This document shows positions 73-4,994 of a stretch of 5,866 nucleotides of DNA, piece by piece. The position numbers and the translations under genes are program-made. Source of the stretch: Anaerolinea sp. (GTDB lineage: Bacteria > Chloroflexota > Anaerolineae > Anaerolineales > Anaerolineaceae). The notes under the pieces were generated by a model, which saw only the letters and a list, made by a program, of their open reading frames with translations, made no database searches and had not been told where the DNA came from. Within the stretch, counting starts at the first letter, position 1; the number at the start of each line of letters is the position of its first letter. Location: positions 1 to 5,866 of the forward strand of contig PNNU01000235.1 in assembly GCA_013824385.1 (NCBI GenBank), written 5' to 3'.

Positions 73-189
73 TTATTCAGATTTTTTCTTGGCTTCGTTT
101 TTCTCTTTCCTTTTTTCTTTCTGAGTCATCTTCGGTTTCTTTTTCTGTTCTTTACTGCCTTTATCGGCCTTGCCACCATTTTCTCCCAT
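73..189 (-). CDS. 38-residue lysine-rich small protein, function unknown
   Basis: A complete short gene: ATG at 189-187, TAA at 75-73, with a strong Shine-Dalgarno AAAGGAG at 198-204 placed 8 nt upstream. The product begins MGENGGKADKG. By hand count it has 14 lysines, 1 arginine, 6 glutamates and 1 aspartate in 38 residues, with no aromatic residue, cysteine or hydrophobic segment, so it is probably disordered and basic. Such composition would suit binding to RNA, ribosomes or another polyanion, but that is inference; I do not recognise the family. An extended -10 lies 45 nt upstream and a stem-loop terminator follows the stop, so it looks like a free-standing monocistronic gene. The phenylalanine-rich open frame on the opposite strand is the antisense shadow of this lysine-rich gene. 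Confidence 0.7.
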   Translation of the reverse strand: MGENGGKADKGSKEQKKKPKMTQKEKRKEKNEAKKKSE

Positions 190-242: not shown

Positions 243-297
243 CTTTCAGGCAAATTTGAGATTATTTTTAAATGAATTAATGAATTGGAAAATTAAC

Positions 298-331
298 CAC
301 AAAACGCGTACGAAACTGTACGCGTTTTGTG
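298..331 (-). terminator. Hairpin terminator of the broken small-gene copy
   Basis: A perfect 14-bp stem (298-311 with 318-331) closes a 6-nt loop. It lies 22 nt beyond the stop codon of the broken copy at 354-536. On the minus strand the distal arm contains TTTTG and is followed by GTTAATTTTC, giving a broken U-rich tail. It occupies the same place as the hairpin at 2054-2089 behind the intact copy, but the stem sequences differ. Confidence 0.65.
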
Positions 332-336
332 TGGAG

Positions 337-505
337 GAAAGAATCAGAAACGTTTAACAGGTTTGAGTAATCGCAACACAGCTCTGACTTAGACCATTAA
401 AGAGCGGTTGATAATTTTTCTCGAATTTATAATTCCAGTTGAAGATGGTTTTGTAATCGACATGGCATGGACCAGGCGCCATTTAATCTTCCATGGCAAC
501 TGAAA
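337..505 (-). repeat. Direct repeat, left copy (partner at 2095-2263)
   Basis: These 169 bases align without gaps to 2095-2263 (offset 1758). By eye there are about 10 differences, so identity is near 94 percent. The first 44 bases, covering the 3' untranslated part, the stop and the last eight codons, are identical. Both copies are in the same orientation and flank the lipoprotein gene. Similarity fades beyond 505, in the region that encodes the N-terminal part of the intact protein. Confidence 0.9.
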
Positions 506-536
506 TCTGATGGGTTTGATGAGGAGTGTTTCCCAT
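354..536 (-). pseudogene. Broken or split copy of the 77-residue small gene
   Basis: Read on the minus strand in one frame, this matches the intact gene at 2112-2345: NTPHQTHQISVAMED, then a stop, then MAPGPCHVDYKTIFNWNYK and onward to the shared end CVAITQTC. The serine codon TCA of the intact copy is TAA here (485-483). The next codon is ATG (482-480), so TAAATG could allow reinitiation of a 42-residue C-terminal piece ending at 354. The frame is open upstream only to 602 and has no credible start: the ATG at 536 lacks a Shine-Dalgarno site, and the residues before it (YFFGFKILG) do not resemble the intact N-terminus. No operator palindrome is seen upstream. Most differences from the intact copy change the amino acid. 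I call it a decayed paralogue; a functional split gene is the alternative. Confidence 0.7.
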
Positions 537-764: not shown

Positions 765-1919
765 ATGTTCTCAAGCAAAGGAAGAATTACTCTATTTGTT
801 TTTGAAGCGCTTTTAATCAGCTCATGGTTGGCATCGTGTTCGACTCCACTCACAGAGAAACCTGCACCAACTGAGACTGTGTCGATCATCCCAACGCAGA
901 GTATTTCAGAAGTGGAATCACAATTTCCACTTTCAAAAATTGGAAAATATTTTGCAGGCAAACTTTCAGTGGAATACGCACATCCATGGATGGAAAATTC
1001 CACCCTGAATCTGCGTATTTTCTACCCGGCTGAAAAGCCTGTTGATTTTACTGGAACTGTTGCCTGGGATGCTGTGCCAGACAAAACATCAGCACCATAT
1101 CCTGTTCTGTTATGTTCAACTACAGTTGCCAATGAGCTTGCACCTCACCTGGTATCGCATGGATTTGTAATAGTCAGTGTTGAAGGCCAGAAATCTTACG
1201 ACACGCTGGGAAGTGAATTGATCGATTATCCTCAAGAGATCCTGGCTGCTCTGGATAATGTTGCCAGCAACCCACCCAATGTATTAATTGGGATGGCAGA
1301 TACTGACAATGCTGGTGTATTTGGTTATTCATTTGACGGGTACAACGCCCTGGCGCTAAGCGGAGCGCGTTTTGACCCACAGTATTATCAGCAAGCATGC
1401 TCTCATGTTGAATCATATATCCCTGGATCGCCGGAAATTTGGCAGGGGTGGAAAAACTACATGTGCCCTGAGAATACTGATTTTATGACAATCGTTGGTG
1501 ATGCGGGAAAGCGGCTAACAATCTCTGAGGATGGTATATGGCAGCCGATGACAGATTCGCGAATTAAGGCTGCAATGCCAATGGCTCCAGAAGGGGCGTT
1601 GTTATTTGGTGAAAGAGGATTAAAATCTGTGGATATCCCCGTCTTCATCATCGGTGCAACAGCTGATGAATATTGCCCGTATTCAATAGAGGCAGCGCCA
1701 ATTTATGAGTATTTGGGCAGTAAGGATAAAGGTATTATCTCGTTCATCGATCAAAACCACATGATGATATTTGATGTGGCACCAAAGGCAAAGATTAAAC
1801 ATTTCCTGGTGGCTTTTTTCAAATACCATTTACTAGGCAGTCAGCAGGATGGATACTTTTTCTCGGAGGAGTTTGTCAATAAACAACCCGGATTGTTTTG
1901 GGGAGTATATAACAAGTGA
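765..1919 (+). CDS. Lipoprotein alpha/beta hydrolase (PAF-acetylhydrolase / dienelactone hydrolase-like)
   Basis: A 384-residue predicted secreted lipoprotein. A short basic start (K5, R7) and hydrophobic stretch lead to a lipobox LASC with the lipidated cysteine at residue 25, followed by a threonine/proline-rich linker; E14 inside the hydrophobic stretch is unusual. The mature part has alpha/beta-hydrolase features: the PYPVLLCS strand (111-118), a nucleophile elbow GYSFDG (187-192, Ser189), the DSRIKAAMPMAPEG block (264-277), the acid strand IPVFIIGATADEY (291-303, probably Asp301) and NHMMIFD (331-337, His332). The order and spacing resemble bacterial PAF-acetylhydrolase-like and dienelactone-hydrolase-like esterases. 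The substrate is unknown, probably an ester acted on outside the membrane. The usual second glycine of GxSxG is Asp191. The ATG at 765 follows GAGGG at a short spacing and gives an intact signal peptide. It is the only plus-strand gene here and sits between direct repeats of a small gene. Confidence 0.85.
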   Translation: MFSSKGRITLFVFEALLISSWLASCSTPLTEKPAPTETVSIIPTQSISEVESQFPLSKIGKYFAGKLSVEYAHPWMENSTLNLRIFYPAEKPVDFTGTVAWDAVPDKTSAPYPVLLCSTTVANELAPHLVSHGFVIVSVEGQKSYDTLGSELIDYPQEILAALDNVASNPPNVLIGMADTDNAGVFGYSFDGYNALALSGARFDPQYYQQACSHVESYIPGSPEIWQGWKNYMCPENTDFMTIVGDAGKRLTISEDGIWQPMTDSRIKAAMPMAPEGALLFGERGLKSVDIPVFIIGATADEYCPYSIEAAPIYEYLGSKDKGIISFIDQNHMMIFDVAPKAKIKHFLVAFFKYHLLGSQQDGYFFSEEFVNKQPGLFWGVYNK

Positions 1920-2053: not shown

Positions 2054-2089
2054 ACACACAGCGCATACAAACTTGTATGCGCTGTGTGT
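2054..2089 (-). terminator. Long hairpin terminator of the small-gene locus
   Basis: Two perfectly complementary 17-nt arms (2054-2070 and 2073-2089) are separated by 2 nt, so the folded hairpin opens a few inner pairs to make its loop. On the minus strand it starts 22 nt after the stop of the 77-residue gene, and its distal arm runs into TTTAATCC. It matches the position of the hairpin at 298-331 behind the paralogous copy. It would end the transcript that includes the three 24-codon genes. Confidence 0.75.
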
Positions 2090-2094
2090 AAGGT

Positions 2095-2263
2095 GAAAGA
2101 ATCAGAAACGTTTAACAGGTTTGAGTAATCGCAACACAATCCTGAGTGAGACCATTAAAGAGCGGTTGATAATCTTTCTCGAATTTGTAATTCCAGGTGA
2201 AGATGGTTTTGTATTCGACATGGCATGGACCAGGCGCCATTGAATCTTCCATGGCAACTGAAA
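2095..2263 (-). repeat. Direct repeat, right copy (partner at 337-505)
   Basis: The right partner of the 169-bp direct repeat, covering the 3' end and most of the conserved C-terminal coding region of the intact 77-residue gene. Recombination between the two copies would remove 1758 bp including the lipoprotein gene. Confidence 0.9.
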
Positions 2264-2345
2264 CCCGGTGGGCTTTGTGCTGCTCGTTTTCGAAATCCAG
2301 TCTTCTATCCCAAAGCACAACGTTGTTAATTAAGTTTTCGTACAT
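2112..2345 (-). CDS. 77-residue small protein with three cysteines, function unknown
   Basis: A complete small gene: ATG at 2345-2343, TAA at 2114-2112, Shine-Dalgarno AAGAGGAG at 2352-2359 placed 6 nt upstream. The N-terminal ~22 residues (MYENLINNVVLWDRRL and on) align with the three 24-residue peptides encoded just upstream and show the same 4-3-4 spacing of hydrophobics (L5, V9, W12, L16), compatible with an amphipathic helix. A middle part (HKAHRVSVAMED) leads to a conserved C-terminal half with alternating hydrophobic residues (HVEYKTIFTWNYKFEKDY) that suggests beta strands. Cysteines are at 41, 70 and 77, the last being the terminal residue. No signal peptide or membrane segment is visible. 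The C-terminal half is conserved in the broken copy at 354-536, including all three cysteines. It ends the array below lacI and precedes a long terminator. I do not recognise the family. A leader-plus-core peptide is conceivable, but no maturation enzyme is evident nearby. Confidence 0.8.
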   Translation of the reverse strand: MYENLINNVVLWDRRLDFENEQHKAHRVSVAMEDSMAPGPCHVEYKTIFTWNYKFEKDYQPLFNGLTQDCVAITQTC

Positions 2346-2382: not shown

Positions 2383-2401
2383 ATAAATAATTGATTATGG
2401 A

Positions 2402-2476
2402 TTACCTTTTCAGGTTATCTGATTCGAGTTTTCGTTCCAACAGAACCACAAACGTGATGAGTTGAGTGCTGAACAT
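2402..2476 (-). CDS. 24-residue micropeptide, third copy
   Basis: ATG at 2476-2474 and TAA at 2404-2402, with AAAGGAT at 2484-2490 placed 7 nt upstream. The product begins MFSTQLITFVV and ends SDNLKR. Against the second copy, nine codons differ synonymously and only three change the residue (F/Y at 9, L/F at 12, S/A at 19). It lies 75 nt after the second copy and 56 nt before the 77-residue gene. Hydrophobic L6, V10, L13 and L17 fall on one helix face, followed by a charged tail. The sequence upstream of its Shine-Dalgarno site has diverged most, with only CGCCGTTTTGATA where the other units have the palindrome. Function unknown. Confidence 0.75.
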   Translation of the reverse strand: MFSTQLITFVVLLERKLESDNLKR

Positions 2477-2551
2477 GGTGTTTATCCTTTCGTATCAAAA
2501 CGGCGATCTGCCTGACCGTAAAATCCGCTGAATGTAATGGTTCAACGGCGA

Positions 2552-2626
2552 TTACCTTTTCAGGTTATCGGCTTCCAATTTTCTTTCCAAAAAAACGACG
2601 TAAGTAATAAGCTGGGTACTGAACAT
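2552..2626 (-). CDS. 24-residue micropeptide, second copy
   Basis: ATG at 2626-2624 and TAA at 2554-2552, with a strong AAAGGAG at 2634-2640 placed 7 nt upstream. The product begins MFSTQLITYVV, continues FLERKLE and ends ADNLKR. It is the same length as its two neighbours, and its gene lies 59 nt after the first copy. Its end can fold as RNA: ACCU and AGGU pair around a GAAA loop, extended by CGAU with AUCG across an A-A mismatch (2549-2570). It looks like an amphipathic helix with a hydrophobic first half and charged second half, too short for a confident membrane call. Function unknown. Confidence 0.78.
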   Translation of the reverse strand: MFSTQLITYVVFLERKLEADNLKR

Positions 2627-2644
2627 TTTTATTCTCCTTTCATA

Positions 2645-2663
2645 TGCAACCGGTTACGACCGG
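2645..2663 (-). promoter_or_regulatory. Imperfect operator before the second micropeptide
   Basis: On the plus strand TGCAACCGGTTACG (2645-2658) differs from the perfect lacI-promoter palindrome at two positions, both in one half. It occupies the same place as the perfect palindrome in the neighbouring unit. As RNA, CCGGU and ACCGG (2650-2663) can also form a 5-bp hairpin with a 4-nt loop. Confidence 0.6.
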
Positions 2664-2685
2664 GACTAAAAAAAGACGATAACGA

Positions 2686-2760
2686 TTACCTTTTCAGGTT
2701 CCCTGTTTCCAAATTTCTTTCCAACAGAATGACGTAAGTAATGAGTTGGGTACTGAACAT
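2686..2760 (-). CDS. 24-residue micropeptide, first copy
   Basis: ATG at 2760-2758 and TAA at 2688-2686, with a strong AAAGGAG at 2768-2774 placed 7 nt upstream. The product begins MFSTQLITYVI, continues LLERNLE and ends TGNLKR. It begins 60 nt after the lacI stop codon, behind a perfect operator palindrome. The same start, length, spacing and end recur in two further copies downstream, which is the main evidence that this is a gene. The peptide resembles the N-terminus of the 77-residue protein at the end of the array. No secretion signal is visible. A peptide that pairs with the 77-residue protein through the shared segment is one possible role, but this is speculation. Confidence 0.78.
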   Translation of the reverse strand: MFSTQLITYVILLERNLETGNLKR

Positions 2761-2776
2761 ATTTATTCTCCTTTCA

Positions 2777-2794
2777 TTTGCAACCGGTTGCAAA
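2777..2794 (-). promoter_or_regulatory. Perfect 18-bp LacI-family operator between lacI and the micropeptides
   Basis: TTTGCAACCGGTTGCAAA is a perfect palindrome with a central CG, the form expected for LacI/GalR-family regulators. Its inner 14 bp equal the palindrome at the lacI promoter 1069 bp away (centre to centre). It lies 2 nt upstream of the first micropeptide's Shine-Dalgarno site. No -10 hexamer is visible beside it, so it might act as a looping partner or roadblock. As RNA, ACCGGUU and AACCGGU (2783-2799) can form a 7-bp hairpin. Confidence 0.75.
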
Positions 2795-2801
2795 CCGGTC
2801 T

Positions 2802-2827
2802 AAAAAAAGTACTGGCTCTATTAAGCC
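2802..2827 (-). terminator. Weak terminator-like element at the end of lacI
   Basis: A 4-bp stem (GGCT/AGCC, 2814-2827) overlapping the lacI stop codon is followed by AGTAC and then seven Ts on the minus strand. The stem is short and the T-run is offset by 5 nt, so full termination is doubtful. It could lower transcription of the micropeptides relative to lacI. A T7 run in the same context (CTTTTTTTAG) recurs at 2668-2674 before the second unit. Confidence 0.3.
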
Positions 2828-3831
2828 GATTTTCGAATGACCAGTTCAACCGGGACGGTCACGTGGGTAATCACGCCGGTTTTGATGGATTGCACCAGAT
2901 TTTGAGCTAATAGTTTGCCCGACATCTGGATGTTCTGCCTGACCGTGGTCAGGGGCAGGTTGTTGTAAGTGGCAATTGCCAGATCATCATAACCAACCAC
3001 CGCTACATCCTCGGGGACGCGTCTGCCGCTGCTTTGGAGCACATCAATCGCGCCGATGGCCATTACATCGCCGCACACGAACACGGCGTCCAGATCAGGG
3101 GTCTTCTCCAGCAGTTGCTTCATACCAGCCACACCTGAATCCAACAGATAATCGCCGTTGACCATCAAATTTGGGTCAATATTGCGGCCCGAGTTTCGCA
3201 TGGCGGTTTCGTAGCCTTTCATCCGCAGTTGACCTTCCAAATCGTATTCAGGTCCGCCGAGGATGGCGATTTTCTTTCTGCCGATGCGGATCAGATGCTC
3301 GGTAGCAAGCATGGCGCCGCTCAAATTATCTCCGGTGACGGTGCAGCAATTGACATCAGGGTCTGGTATCCCCCAAATAATAAATGGGGCTTCCATATCG
3401 GAAAGCATTTTCGAATAAGAATGACCACGTCCGGTTTTCATCAGAATAAAACCGTCCACACGTCCGCTGTCAAAATACTGATGCGCCCAACTGGTGTCGC
3501 GCGGCTTCATATGAATCATCAGCAAGTCGTAATTTAGTTCATCCAGACCGGTGCCGATGGCGCTCATGATCTCCAGACCGAACATGTCTTCGACGGTAAA
3601 GCCGCATTGGTGGCTGTGGGTGACGAAGCCGACTGTGCAGCTCTGACGCCGGCTGAGATTGCGAGCTGGCAGGTTCATGCAGAAATTGTGTTCCTCGGCA
3701 ATGGCCTTGATACGTTCTTTGGTCTCGGGGTTGATCAGGGAACTGTCATTTAAAGCGCGGCTGACCGTCGATTTCGAGACGTTGGCCAGCTTGGCGATAT
3801 CTTCAATGGTTTTGACTGTTTTTGTTCCCAT
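2821..3831 (-). CDS. LacI/GalR-family transcriptional regulator
   Basis: A full-length 336-residue DNA-binding regulator. The N-terminal helix-turn-helix is at about 8-27 (TIEDIAKLANVSKSTVSRAL). It is followed by ALNDSSLINPETKERI and the hinge region NLPARNL (53-59), whose L59 corresponds to the leucine that intercalates at the central CpG of family operators. The periplasmic-binding-protein-like sensor domain spans about 66-336, with VDGFIL (125-130), the DAVFVCGDVMAIGAIDVL segment (248-265), the VVGYDD motif (278-283) and LTTVRQ (294-299). The ATG at 3831 is preceded by AGGA at 3838-3841, 6 nt away. A strong promoter with an operator overlapping its -10 lies directly upstream, so autorepression is likely. 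The ligand is unknown; the family usually senses sugars or nucleosides, but no transport or catabolic gene is in the window. The likely targets here are the micropeptide genes, which carry the same palindrome. Confidence 0.95.
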   Translation of the reverse strand: MGTKTVKTIEDIAKLANVSKSTVSRALNDSSLINPETKERIKAIAEEHNFCMNLPARNLSRRQSCTVGFVTHSHQCGFTVEDMFGLEIMSAIGTGLDELNYDLLMIHMKPRDTSWAHQYFDSGRVDGFILMKTGRGHSYSKMLSDMEAPFIIWGIPDPDVNCCTVTGDNLSGAMLATEHLIRIGRKKIAILGGPEYDLEGQLRMKGYETAMRNSGRNIDPNLMVNGDYLLDSGVAGMKQLLEKTPDLDAVFVCGDVMAIGAIDVLQSSGRRVPEDVAVVGYDDLAIATYNNLPLTTVRQNIQMSGKLLAQNLVQSIKTGVITHVTVPVELVIRKSA

Positions 3832-3847: not shown

Positions 3848-3861
3848 TGCAACCGGTTGCA
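3848..3861 (-). promoter_or_regulatory. Operator overlapping the lacI promoter
   Basis: TGCAACCGGTTGCA is a perfect 14-bp palindrome with a central CG. It begins at the last base of the -10 hexamer and covers the expected transcription start, a placement typical of repression by steric block. The same core recurs at 2777-2794, and in imperfect form at 2645-2658, in front of the micropeptide genes, which links the regulator to them. Confidence 0.85.
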
Positions 3862-3890
3862 TTATAGCATTAATCAAAGAGGCTTGTCAA
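3861..3890 (-). promoter_or_regulatory. Strong sigma70-type promoter of lacI
   Basis: On the minus strand TTGACA (3890-3885) and TATAAT (3866-3861) both match consensus exactly, separated by 18 nt, and TGC before the -10 adds an extended element. Transcription would start around 3854, inside the operator, leaving a leader of about 20 nt before the ATG at 3831. It is the best promoter in the window. Confidence 0.9.
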
Positions 3891-4952: not shown

Positions 4953-4994
4953 AAAAAACAGGCATATCTCAAAAGGGATACACCTGTTTTTTTT
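4953..4994 (-). terminator. Intrinsic terminator of dnaK
   Basis: The 10-bp core stem (CAGGTGTATC with GATATGCCTG on the minus strand, including two G-T pairs) is flanked by A6/T6 arms that extend it to 16 bp around an 8-nt loop. On the minus strand it starts just after the dnaK stop and ends in a run of six Ts. The A-run before the stem makes it potentially bidirectional. Confidence 0.85.

Follow-up and report, generated by a model that had tools for sequence, protein, structure and literature searches.

A possible ligand-switched terminator formed by a LacI-family repressor and gating 24-codon microprotein genes in Anaerolineaceae

A LacI-family locus with three 24-codon frames

The window analyzed here, a 5,866-nucleotide stretch of Anaerolinea sp. 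DNA, carries three very short open reading frames in tandem, and the question it raises is whether frames of this size are genes maintained for their peptides and, if so, how their expression is governed. An earlier note, made from the letters alone, had described three ATG-to-TAA frames of 24 residues each, starting MFSTQLIT and ending NLKR; all three are present, on the minus strand, and both ends are as described in 3/3 copies. Transcription runs from high to low coordinates, so that copies one, two, and three of that note correspond to 2686-2760, 2552-2626, and 2402-2476, respectively. A Shine-Dalgarno sequence 7 nt upstream, which the note had claimed for every copy, is found for copies one and two (AAAGGAG), whereas copy three has AAAGGA at 8 nt. 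The note had recognized the frames but did not mention the lacI operon around them, the 77-aa companion, the operators, or the T-tracts. Features are listed below in the order of transcription, with "gate" denoting a T-tract followed at a set distance by an operator.

4869-4015, minus strand: LCM-type methyltransferase gene, on the other side of lacI (Pfam)
3885-3890, minus strand: -35 element of the lacI promoter, TTGACA (sequence, kept in relatives)
3861-3866, minus strand: -10 element of the lacI promoter, TATAAT, spacer 18 nt, its last T being the first base of the operator (sequence)
3848-3861, no strand assigned: operator O1, TGCAACCGGTTGCA, abutting the lacI -10 (sequence, relatives)
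2821-3831, minus strand: LacI/GalR-family repressor, 336 aa (Pfam domains, family homologues)
2802-2808, minus strand: gate 1 T-tract, T7, starting 12 nt past the lacI stop codon (sequence, relatives)
2779-2792, no strand assigned: operator O2 of gate 1, lying exactly 9 nt beyond the T-tract (sequence, relatives)
2768-2774, minus strand: Shine-Dalgarno AAAGGAG of the first 24-aa ORF (sequence)
2686-2760, minus strand: first 24-aa ORF, MFSTQLITYVILLERNLETGNLKR (ORF list, conservation)
2668-2674, minus strand: gate 2 T-tract, T7, 11 nt past the first 24-aa stop codon (sequence, relatives)
2645-2658, no strand assigned: operator of gate 2, with 2 mismatches, lying 9 nt beyond its T-tract (sequence)
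2634-2640, minus strand: Shine-Dalgarno AAAGGAG of the second 24-aa ORF (sequence)
2552-2626, minus strand: second 24-aa ORF, MFSTQLITYVVFLERKLEADNLKR (ORF list, conservation)
2485-2490, minus strand: Shine-Dalgarno AAAGGA of the third 24-aa ORF, 8 nt before the ATG, with the T-tract absent there (sequence)
2402-2476, minus strand: third 24-aa ORF, MFSTQLITFVVLLERKLESDNLKR (ORF list, conservation)
2112-2345, minus strand: 77-aa ORF, conserved, N-terminus like the 24-aa peptide (database relatives, dN/dS, alignment)
2054-2089, minus strand: hairpin terminator after the 77-aa ORF (fold of the segment -28.1 kcal/mol)
292-517, minus strand: partial duplicate of the 77-aa gene, comprising its 3' piece and terminator and lacking the 5' part (comparison)

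The locus is a predicted LacI-family operon comprising lacI, the three 24-aa frames, the conserved 77-aa ORF, and a hairpin terminator. The repressor has the N-terminal HTH and the periplasmic-binding-like core of LacI/GalR proteins (PF00356, 1.2e-16; PF13377, 7.9e-28; PF00532, 6.9e-24), and a palindromic operator with a central CG (TGCAACCGGTTGCA) lies at its own promoter. From the position of O1 against the lacI -10 we infer autoregulation; the same overlap of -10 and operator is repeated at most lacI promoters of relatives. LacI relatives at E<=1e-60 occur in 16/147 genomes of the family sample, the family and class samples used throughout being those of the genome (G001) that carries locus L001. 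With at most 1 mismatch, the operator occurs at 6-9 sites per genome in 4 relatives, vs 0-1 for the reversed control. Further operator sites in G001-G004 adjoin MFS permeases (PF07690), GH3 enzymes, and one GH2 enzyme, five of these proteins being confirmed by Pfam, which indicates that the regulon concerns a glycoside.

The stem of the terminator that follows the 77-aa gene differs in its letters among relatives while its pairing is kept. The piece at 292-517 is identical to the 77-aa gene in 199/227 columns (88%); a second complete copy of 75-77 aa stands in place of this partial duplicate in L004. Two other window genes were noted: a lysine-rich 38-aa ORF (MGENGGKADKG...KKKSE; 73-189, minus strand) with a ribosome site and a hairpin terminator, which has no Pfam match and recurs almost unchanged downstream of this locus in L001, L002, and L004, and a predicted lipoprotein-like hydrolase with a PET-hydrolase-like domain (765-1919, plus strand; PF12740, E 1.7e-14).

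Maintenance of the 24-residue peptide and its kinship with longer small proteins

The codon comparison of copies two and three agrees exactly with the earlier description, with synonymous differences at codons 3-8, 10, 15, and 17 and non-synonymous differences only at 9, 12, and 19. When the substitutions were placed at random in copy three, the synonymous count was matched in 0/1000 trials for copies two vs three and in 2/1000 for copies one vs three, trials that yielded a stop codon (68% against copy two, 60% against copy one) being scored as not reaching it. Copy two vs copy one gives a weaker result (71/1000); these two copies form a 134-nt tandem repeat (2549-2809, TRF). Across the window and its relatives, 10/15 pairs fall at or below 0.05, the other five being 0.071, 0.074, 0.18, 0.19, and 0.25.

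Arrays of the same kind occupy the same place in four relatives (L001-L004, in records titled Chloroflexi or Anaerolineaceae), whose LacI proteins are 89-93% identical to that of the window. These loci hold 3, 2, 2, and 2 tandem 24-codon frames (E 3e-17 to 5e-15), each preceded by a ribosome site. All 12 copies, 3 from the window and 9 from relatives, are exactly 24 codons long, with 10/24 columns invariant and another 3 at >=90%; internal stops number 0 among the 12, a count to be read in light of the fact that a broken copy might go unseen by the 24-position profile. Pooled pN/pS is 0.28 across all 66 pairs, and pairwise dN/dS is 0.06-0.55 in 64/66, the remaining two having saturated dS. Both lacI (0.04-0.08) and the 77-aa ORF (0.04-0.13) are held more tightly than the 24-aa ORFs. 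At the sequence level, then, the 24-aa peptide is under purifying selection: the earlier proposal that the peptide and not just the DNA is maintained is supported by the pooled pN/pS, by dN/dS values on the 12 copies well away from 1, and by arrays conserved in four relatives with no frame-breaking stops inside.

The first copies of L002-L004 (B1, C1, D1) are nearer to each other (mutual dS 0.19-0.28) than to the adjacent second copy (dS 0.56-0.79), indicating that the array predates those lineages. In the window and L001, copies one and two are nearer each other (dS 0.38 and 0.35, respectively), a pattern as after later duplication or conversion. Searched against 121 relatives, the 12-copy profile finds the 9 known relative copies and nothing else at E <0.002, strong matches being confined to 4/121, and in the class sample (396 genomes) it is strong in G001 only. 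A match in G109 (E 0.0026) covers positions 6-23 of 24 only and lies among genes unlike those of this locus, and it was left out of the count for these reasons. Pfam and NCBIfam give no match for the two 24-aa ORFs scanned, plasmid sequences give none to window 2390-2820, and the string MFSTQLIT is absent from the open-licence literature searched. RNA structure was considered as the conserved element of the 24 codons and rejected, the consensus being only a 4-bp stem; this hairpin, at the 24-aa stop codon, has one pair broken in 3/12 copies and another in 1/12.

A protein database search with the 77-aa sequence gives 12 relatives at E<=5e-22, annotated as hypothetical where named and with no Pfam domain listed; Pfam and NCBIfam return nothing for the ORF itself. 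The 77-aa protein begins MYENLINNVVLWDRRL (consensus MYENLINxIVLWERRL), which resembles QLITYVVLLERKLE. In six further genomes (G514, G058, G026, G059, G538, G011) a small ORF of 70-89 aa directly follows the same lacI, and no 24-aa copies were seen behind lacI there. Aligned proteins from the first five share a module like QLINxVVxWERRLExE, with G011 a looser match. In hhalign, the 24-aa set matches a mixed set (five lacI-following small proteins and five of the 77-aa group) with Prob 91 and P 9.5e-7, ungapped over 24/24 columns; the match to the 77-aa group alone is weaker (P 1.5e-4, Prob 51.5, 19 columns). Proteins with the module stand directly behind the same lacI and gate at L059-L063 and, by eye, at L107 and L120, with L070 a looser match. 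By sequence, the longer small proteins found behind this lacI in relatives begin with a module to which the 24-aa peptide corresponds as a stand-alone version.

This kinship, together with the broken 77-aa-gene duplicate at 292-517, could also be expected if the 24-aa copies were functionless, degenerate tandem duplicates of the 77-aa gene N-terminus. That explanation is disfavoured to the point of being barely credible, given 0/12 copies with an internal stop, the pN/pS of 0.28, positional orthology in three genomes, and ribosome sites that are kept. Another explanation takes the peptides as small hydrophobic toxins or as secreted or modified signals, in keeping with their shortness, their hydrophobic stretch LITYVVLL, the presence of several copies, and the LCM-type methyltransferase gene that flanks lacI on its other side. 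The nine window ORFs put through a Pfam scan, however, include no peptide exporter or protease, a general Rfam scan finds no RNA family match within the window, and the module is held in common with longer ORFs, leaving this explanation very improbable, if slightly less so than degenerate duplication.

The T-tract and operator behind lacI

The putative gate consists of a T-tract (usually T7-8), 9 nt, and a lacI operator, and it begins 0-19 nt behind the lacI stop codon. Among 16 LacI loci of the family, chosen by protein homology alone, 15 have a gate behind lacI, with a spacing of 9 in 15/15; L064 (G506) has neither T-tract nor operator behind lacI. In the window and these 15/16 loci the operator thus lies at the end of the repressor's own transcribed gene, as in roadblock-type control. 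The 9-nt spacer sequences vary among loci and have no -10 common to them. In a list of 33 lacI-end gates, in which close relatives (the window and L055-L058; L114 and L116) count as separate rows and from which L115 and L117 are omitted for having no lacI end in front, spacing is 9 in 29, 11 in three, and 8 in one. Gate and lacI-promoter operators are identical at 21/28 loci and differ by 1-2 bases at 7/28 (the 33 rows minus L070, L074, L110, L112, and L113, which have no separate promoter-side operator), which fits one repressor binding both.

Family-wide, class, and phylum site searches began from the tract, a bias of which only the 16-locus LacI set and L005 are free: T6 at 3-20 nt before TGCAANCGNTTGCA occurs at 22 distinct places in the 147 family genomes, 17 of them at 9 (16/21 if a G538 place present on two contigs as the same stretch is counted once), and in the class sample (396 genomes, distances 5-13) there are 33 sites, 22 at 9, 6 at 10, 4 at 11, and 1 at 8. 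The remaining five family places are at distances 6, 7, 13, 18, and 18, and the reversed-pattern control gives 0. At 9 or 10, the class sample also includes sites that are not preceded by a lacI end. When 251 genomes of a phylum sample were searched with a looser operator pattern, no clear peak at 9 emerged, and ATAAT or a similar string adjoins the operator at several of the sites found there at 10 and 11. A LacI-wide gate was accordingly rejected, and the gate seems to be peculiar to this LacI group. Locus L005, the one relative titled as another phylum (Vicinamibacteria) and found by LacI homology (53% over residues 114-336), has at 600-760 an interrupted tract, TTTTCTTTT, that ends exactly 9 nt before TGCAACCGGTTGCA behind the lacI stop. 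A long ORF follows, and the locus hints at an occurrence of the gate outside Chloroflexi. A T-tract with AGTAAAAAT and TGCAAGCGCTTGCA at distance 9, alike in three genomes (L101, L103, and the G443:C29 place) and not preceded by a lacI end in the two loci examined, is possibly another gate type.

A second gate precedes the second 24-aa ORF in the window and L001-L004, at distances 9, 10, 9, 8, and 9, and two of these operators carry 2 mismatches. Tandem gates occur also in G037, G501, and G491. Between the two gates of G037 (L067) lies a 28-codon ORF (MKSMNPCEANPENTLSFGRPVLAACRAH) that is unlike the 24-aa peptide and ends with a stop codon abutting the T12 tract of the second gate. No T-tract precedes the third 24-aa ORF or the 77-aa ORF.

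A hairpin of <= -5 kcal/mol lies directly before the tract in 2/32 gates, and in 4/32 when up to four T's may join the stem, vs 9% of shuffled sequences; gate 1 of the window reaches -4.6 at best when T's may join the stem. The same approach gives -15 to -26 for eight hairpin terminators of the same loci, these being the simpler controls used with a finder that cannot model interior loops and so missed a terminator near 4980 that contains one. An ACCGG/CCGGT hairpin seen by eye in the 5' leaders of the window group was rejected as a feature of the gate: it is not kept elsewhere, where the 9-nt spacer differs. The stable hairpin that would precede the U-tract of an intrinsic terminator is absent from most gates. 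The features of a trp-type leader attenuator are likewise absent, with no codon runs by eye among the 24 codons, a consensus stem of only 4 bp within the ORF, and no Rfam match in the window.

We propose, with a probability of roughly 0.55 for the model as a whole, that LacI acts as a ligand-switched terminator gating the small ORFs and that the three frames are genuine microprotein genes in the tail of a sugar-repressor operon under its own control. Without inducer, LacI on the second operator would be a roadblock to RNA polymerase, which would halt with the RNA 3' end at the end of the T-tract. Judging from this geometry, the RNA-DNA hybrid would then be nearly all rU:dA and the complex would fall apart, release occurring unaided or with a helper such as Mfd. 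LacI would in this way terminate its own mRNA just past the stop codon, and the small ORFs would stay silent. With inducer, the promoter and both gates would open together, and the microproteins would be made alongside the other members of the regulon, the MFS permease and the GH3 and GH2 glycosidases. The gate is best filed as a candidate variant of roadblock termination and not as an intrinsic terminator.

The E. coli operator Oid reaches about 3 bp past the 14-bp core. In E. coli constructs, polymerase advances at most 25 of the 30 bp to the Oid edge (PMC4132739). The two figures together would put the RNA 3' end some 8 nt ahead of the core, a position that at this gate coincides with the end of the T-tract. 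E. coli LacI at O3 is a roadblock to lacI transcription (PMC3711431), and roadblocked E. coli polymerase is cleared mainly by Mfd (PMC4132739). Yeast Pol I halts within a T-rich element that lies 15 bp ahead of the site of a roadblock protein, and roadblock and T-rich element alone released no RNA, a hairpin being required (PMC12366685); by analogy with this requirement and with the role of Mfd, release at the gate may need help. When a hairpin terminator follows a gene by only a few bp in E. coli, ribosomes are reported to repress it almost fully (PMC4824070), which would explain a hairpin-free design near the stop codon. More tentatively, and with somewhat less than even confidence, the gates may represent a bacterial class of hairpin-free terminator, a U-tract with a repressor bound at a fixed 9 nt downstream, present in the sampled class (Anaerolineae by record titles) and perhaps beyond (L005), that turns an ordinary sugar repressor into a ligand-switched termination factor of its own operon. 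Such gates would control fast-changing microproteins, some of which, the 24-aa peptides, would be stand-alone dimerisation or docking helices of the longer ones.

The hairpin measurements bear also on the explanation that the T-tracts belong to ordinary hairpin terminators and that the operator controls an unseen promoter. Fair hairpins do occur (L112, -10.2; L118 and L119, -7.9; L062, -7.6), and the G058 gate itself contains TATAAT just before its operator. Hairpins of <= -5 in 2/32 or 4/32 gates are nevertheless at about the shuffled rate of 9%, the other 9-nt spacers have no common -10, and the fixed operator spacing is left unexplained; this explanation is distinctly unlikely.

A different possibility is that the T-tract is a bent A/T element or a spacing feature that aids LacI binding or O1-O2 looping, with O2 only supporting repression of the promoter. 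A-tracts bend DNA, a second operator 1.06-1.13 kb downstream of O1 suits an auxiliary site, and at the lacI promoter of G441 (L109) a T7 lies exactly 9 nt before the operator, so that the arrangement is not confined to gates. Against this possibility, the lacI-end tract is on the upstream side in the sense of transcription, it lies 0-19 nt past a stop codon and recurs after the first 24-aa ORF, and among 42 operator contexts no other permease, glycosidase, or lacI promoter operator has T6 9 nt upstream, the exception being the G058 gate. The spacing of O1 and O2 shows no clear helical phasing (Rayleigh p about 0.08 over 11 lineages), and phasing was dropped as an explanation. The possibility is unlikely, though not negligible.

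Judged comparably unlikely is an effect of translation itself, in which a stopping ribosome pushes the polymerase or masks RNA structure and the 24-codon ORFs act as leader peptides or by coupling. A stop codon lies 0-19 nt before each listed lacI-end T-tract, and for gate 2 of the window and L001-L004 this interval is 10-14 nt. The unrelated 28-codon ORF of G037 occupies the place between its two gates, and gene-proximal E. coli hairpin terminators are reported to be subject to ribosome repression (PMC4824070). Translation as such would not account for codons that drift while amino acids are conserved, for the absence of a T-tract after the second or third 24-aa ORF, or for a consensus RNA structure of no more than the 4-bp stop-codon hairpin, with pairs broken in some copies.

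Known systems, the role of the peptide, and proteins behind other gates

We know of no such gate in print, within the open-licence literature; what is new is the microprotein family and, more so, the fixed arrangement of T-tract, 9 nt, and operator. The closest parallel, E. coli lacI-O3 (PMC3711431), resembles it in that a LacI-family repressor at the end of its own gene stops lacI transcription. In E. coli the roadblock cuts the transcript short and the resulting protein is tagged for proteolysis, whereas the operator here lies past the lacI stop codon and the message would be complete; neither a T-tract at 9 nt nor gated small ORFs are mentioned in the description consulted. The yeast Pol I terminator with its Reb1/Nsi1 site (PMC12366685) shares a non-template T-rich stretch at a set distance (15 bp) before a roadblock, but its polymerase is eukaryotic, its release needs an RNA hairpin, and inducer switching is not mentioned in the description consulted, which makes it an analogy only. 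The CcpA, CodY, and C.Kpn2I roadblocks (PMC4132739, PMC6237814) are alike in that a bacterial regulator halts elongation inside a transcription unit; no T-tract at a fixed distance is mentioned in the descriptions consulted. Intrinsic (Rho-independent) terminators share the U-tract at the RNA 3' end, whereas most gates here have no stable hairpin before the tract.

If the model is true, a T-tract at a fixed distance turns a repressor-operator pair into a ligand-controlled terminator, and bacteria have a counterpart to the eukaryotic Pol I terminators that combine a T-rich element with a roadblock. The model would also account for a separately silenced gene lying only a few bases behind a repressor gene, where ribosomes would mask a hairpin terminator. 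The 24-aa family in turn is conserved, linked to sugar regulation, short enough to escape usual gene calling, and found in a poorly studied phylum.

Small proteins of the SgrT type regulate sugar transporters, and the 24-aa peptide would likewise be a tiny protein made while a sugar system is active, although its function here is a guess. AlphaFold predicts for the 77-aa protein a helix at 2-35 and then no structure, with low confidence (mean pLDDT 55), and a fold search with this model was dropped because the model was too poor. An amphipathic helix was also rejected: of 11 sequences, none has a hydrophobic moment significantly higher than its shuffles (lowest P 0.155). The lack of significant amphipathicity and the low pLDDT make the docking idea weak. 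The most likely role, offered as a guess on slight grounds, is that of a small regulator of sugar uptake or use that docks via the N-terminal helix it has in common with the 77-aa protein; it might, as a further guess, pair with that protein or compete for its partner.

Permeases and enzymes stand behind some gates elsewhere, by eye MFS-like permeases in G370 and G401 and a GH3-like enzyme in G029. Proteins that we take to be ParB-like, from a DGHHRVSVA motif plus likeness by eye, stand behind gates in G037, G570, G027, G392, G453, G501, and G491. Pfam gives no match for the three ParB-like ORFs tested and nothing for six ORFs behind gates in relatives; NCBIfam gives for three behind-gate ORFs just two matches, far under the cut-off, and PDB sequences give none for the one ParB-like ORF searched. 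Proteins of about 140-180 aa, alike by eye, stand directly behind the gate at L067, L068, L069, L104, L105, L110, L118, and L119, and the three of them listed in full carry a DGHHRVSVA-like motif.
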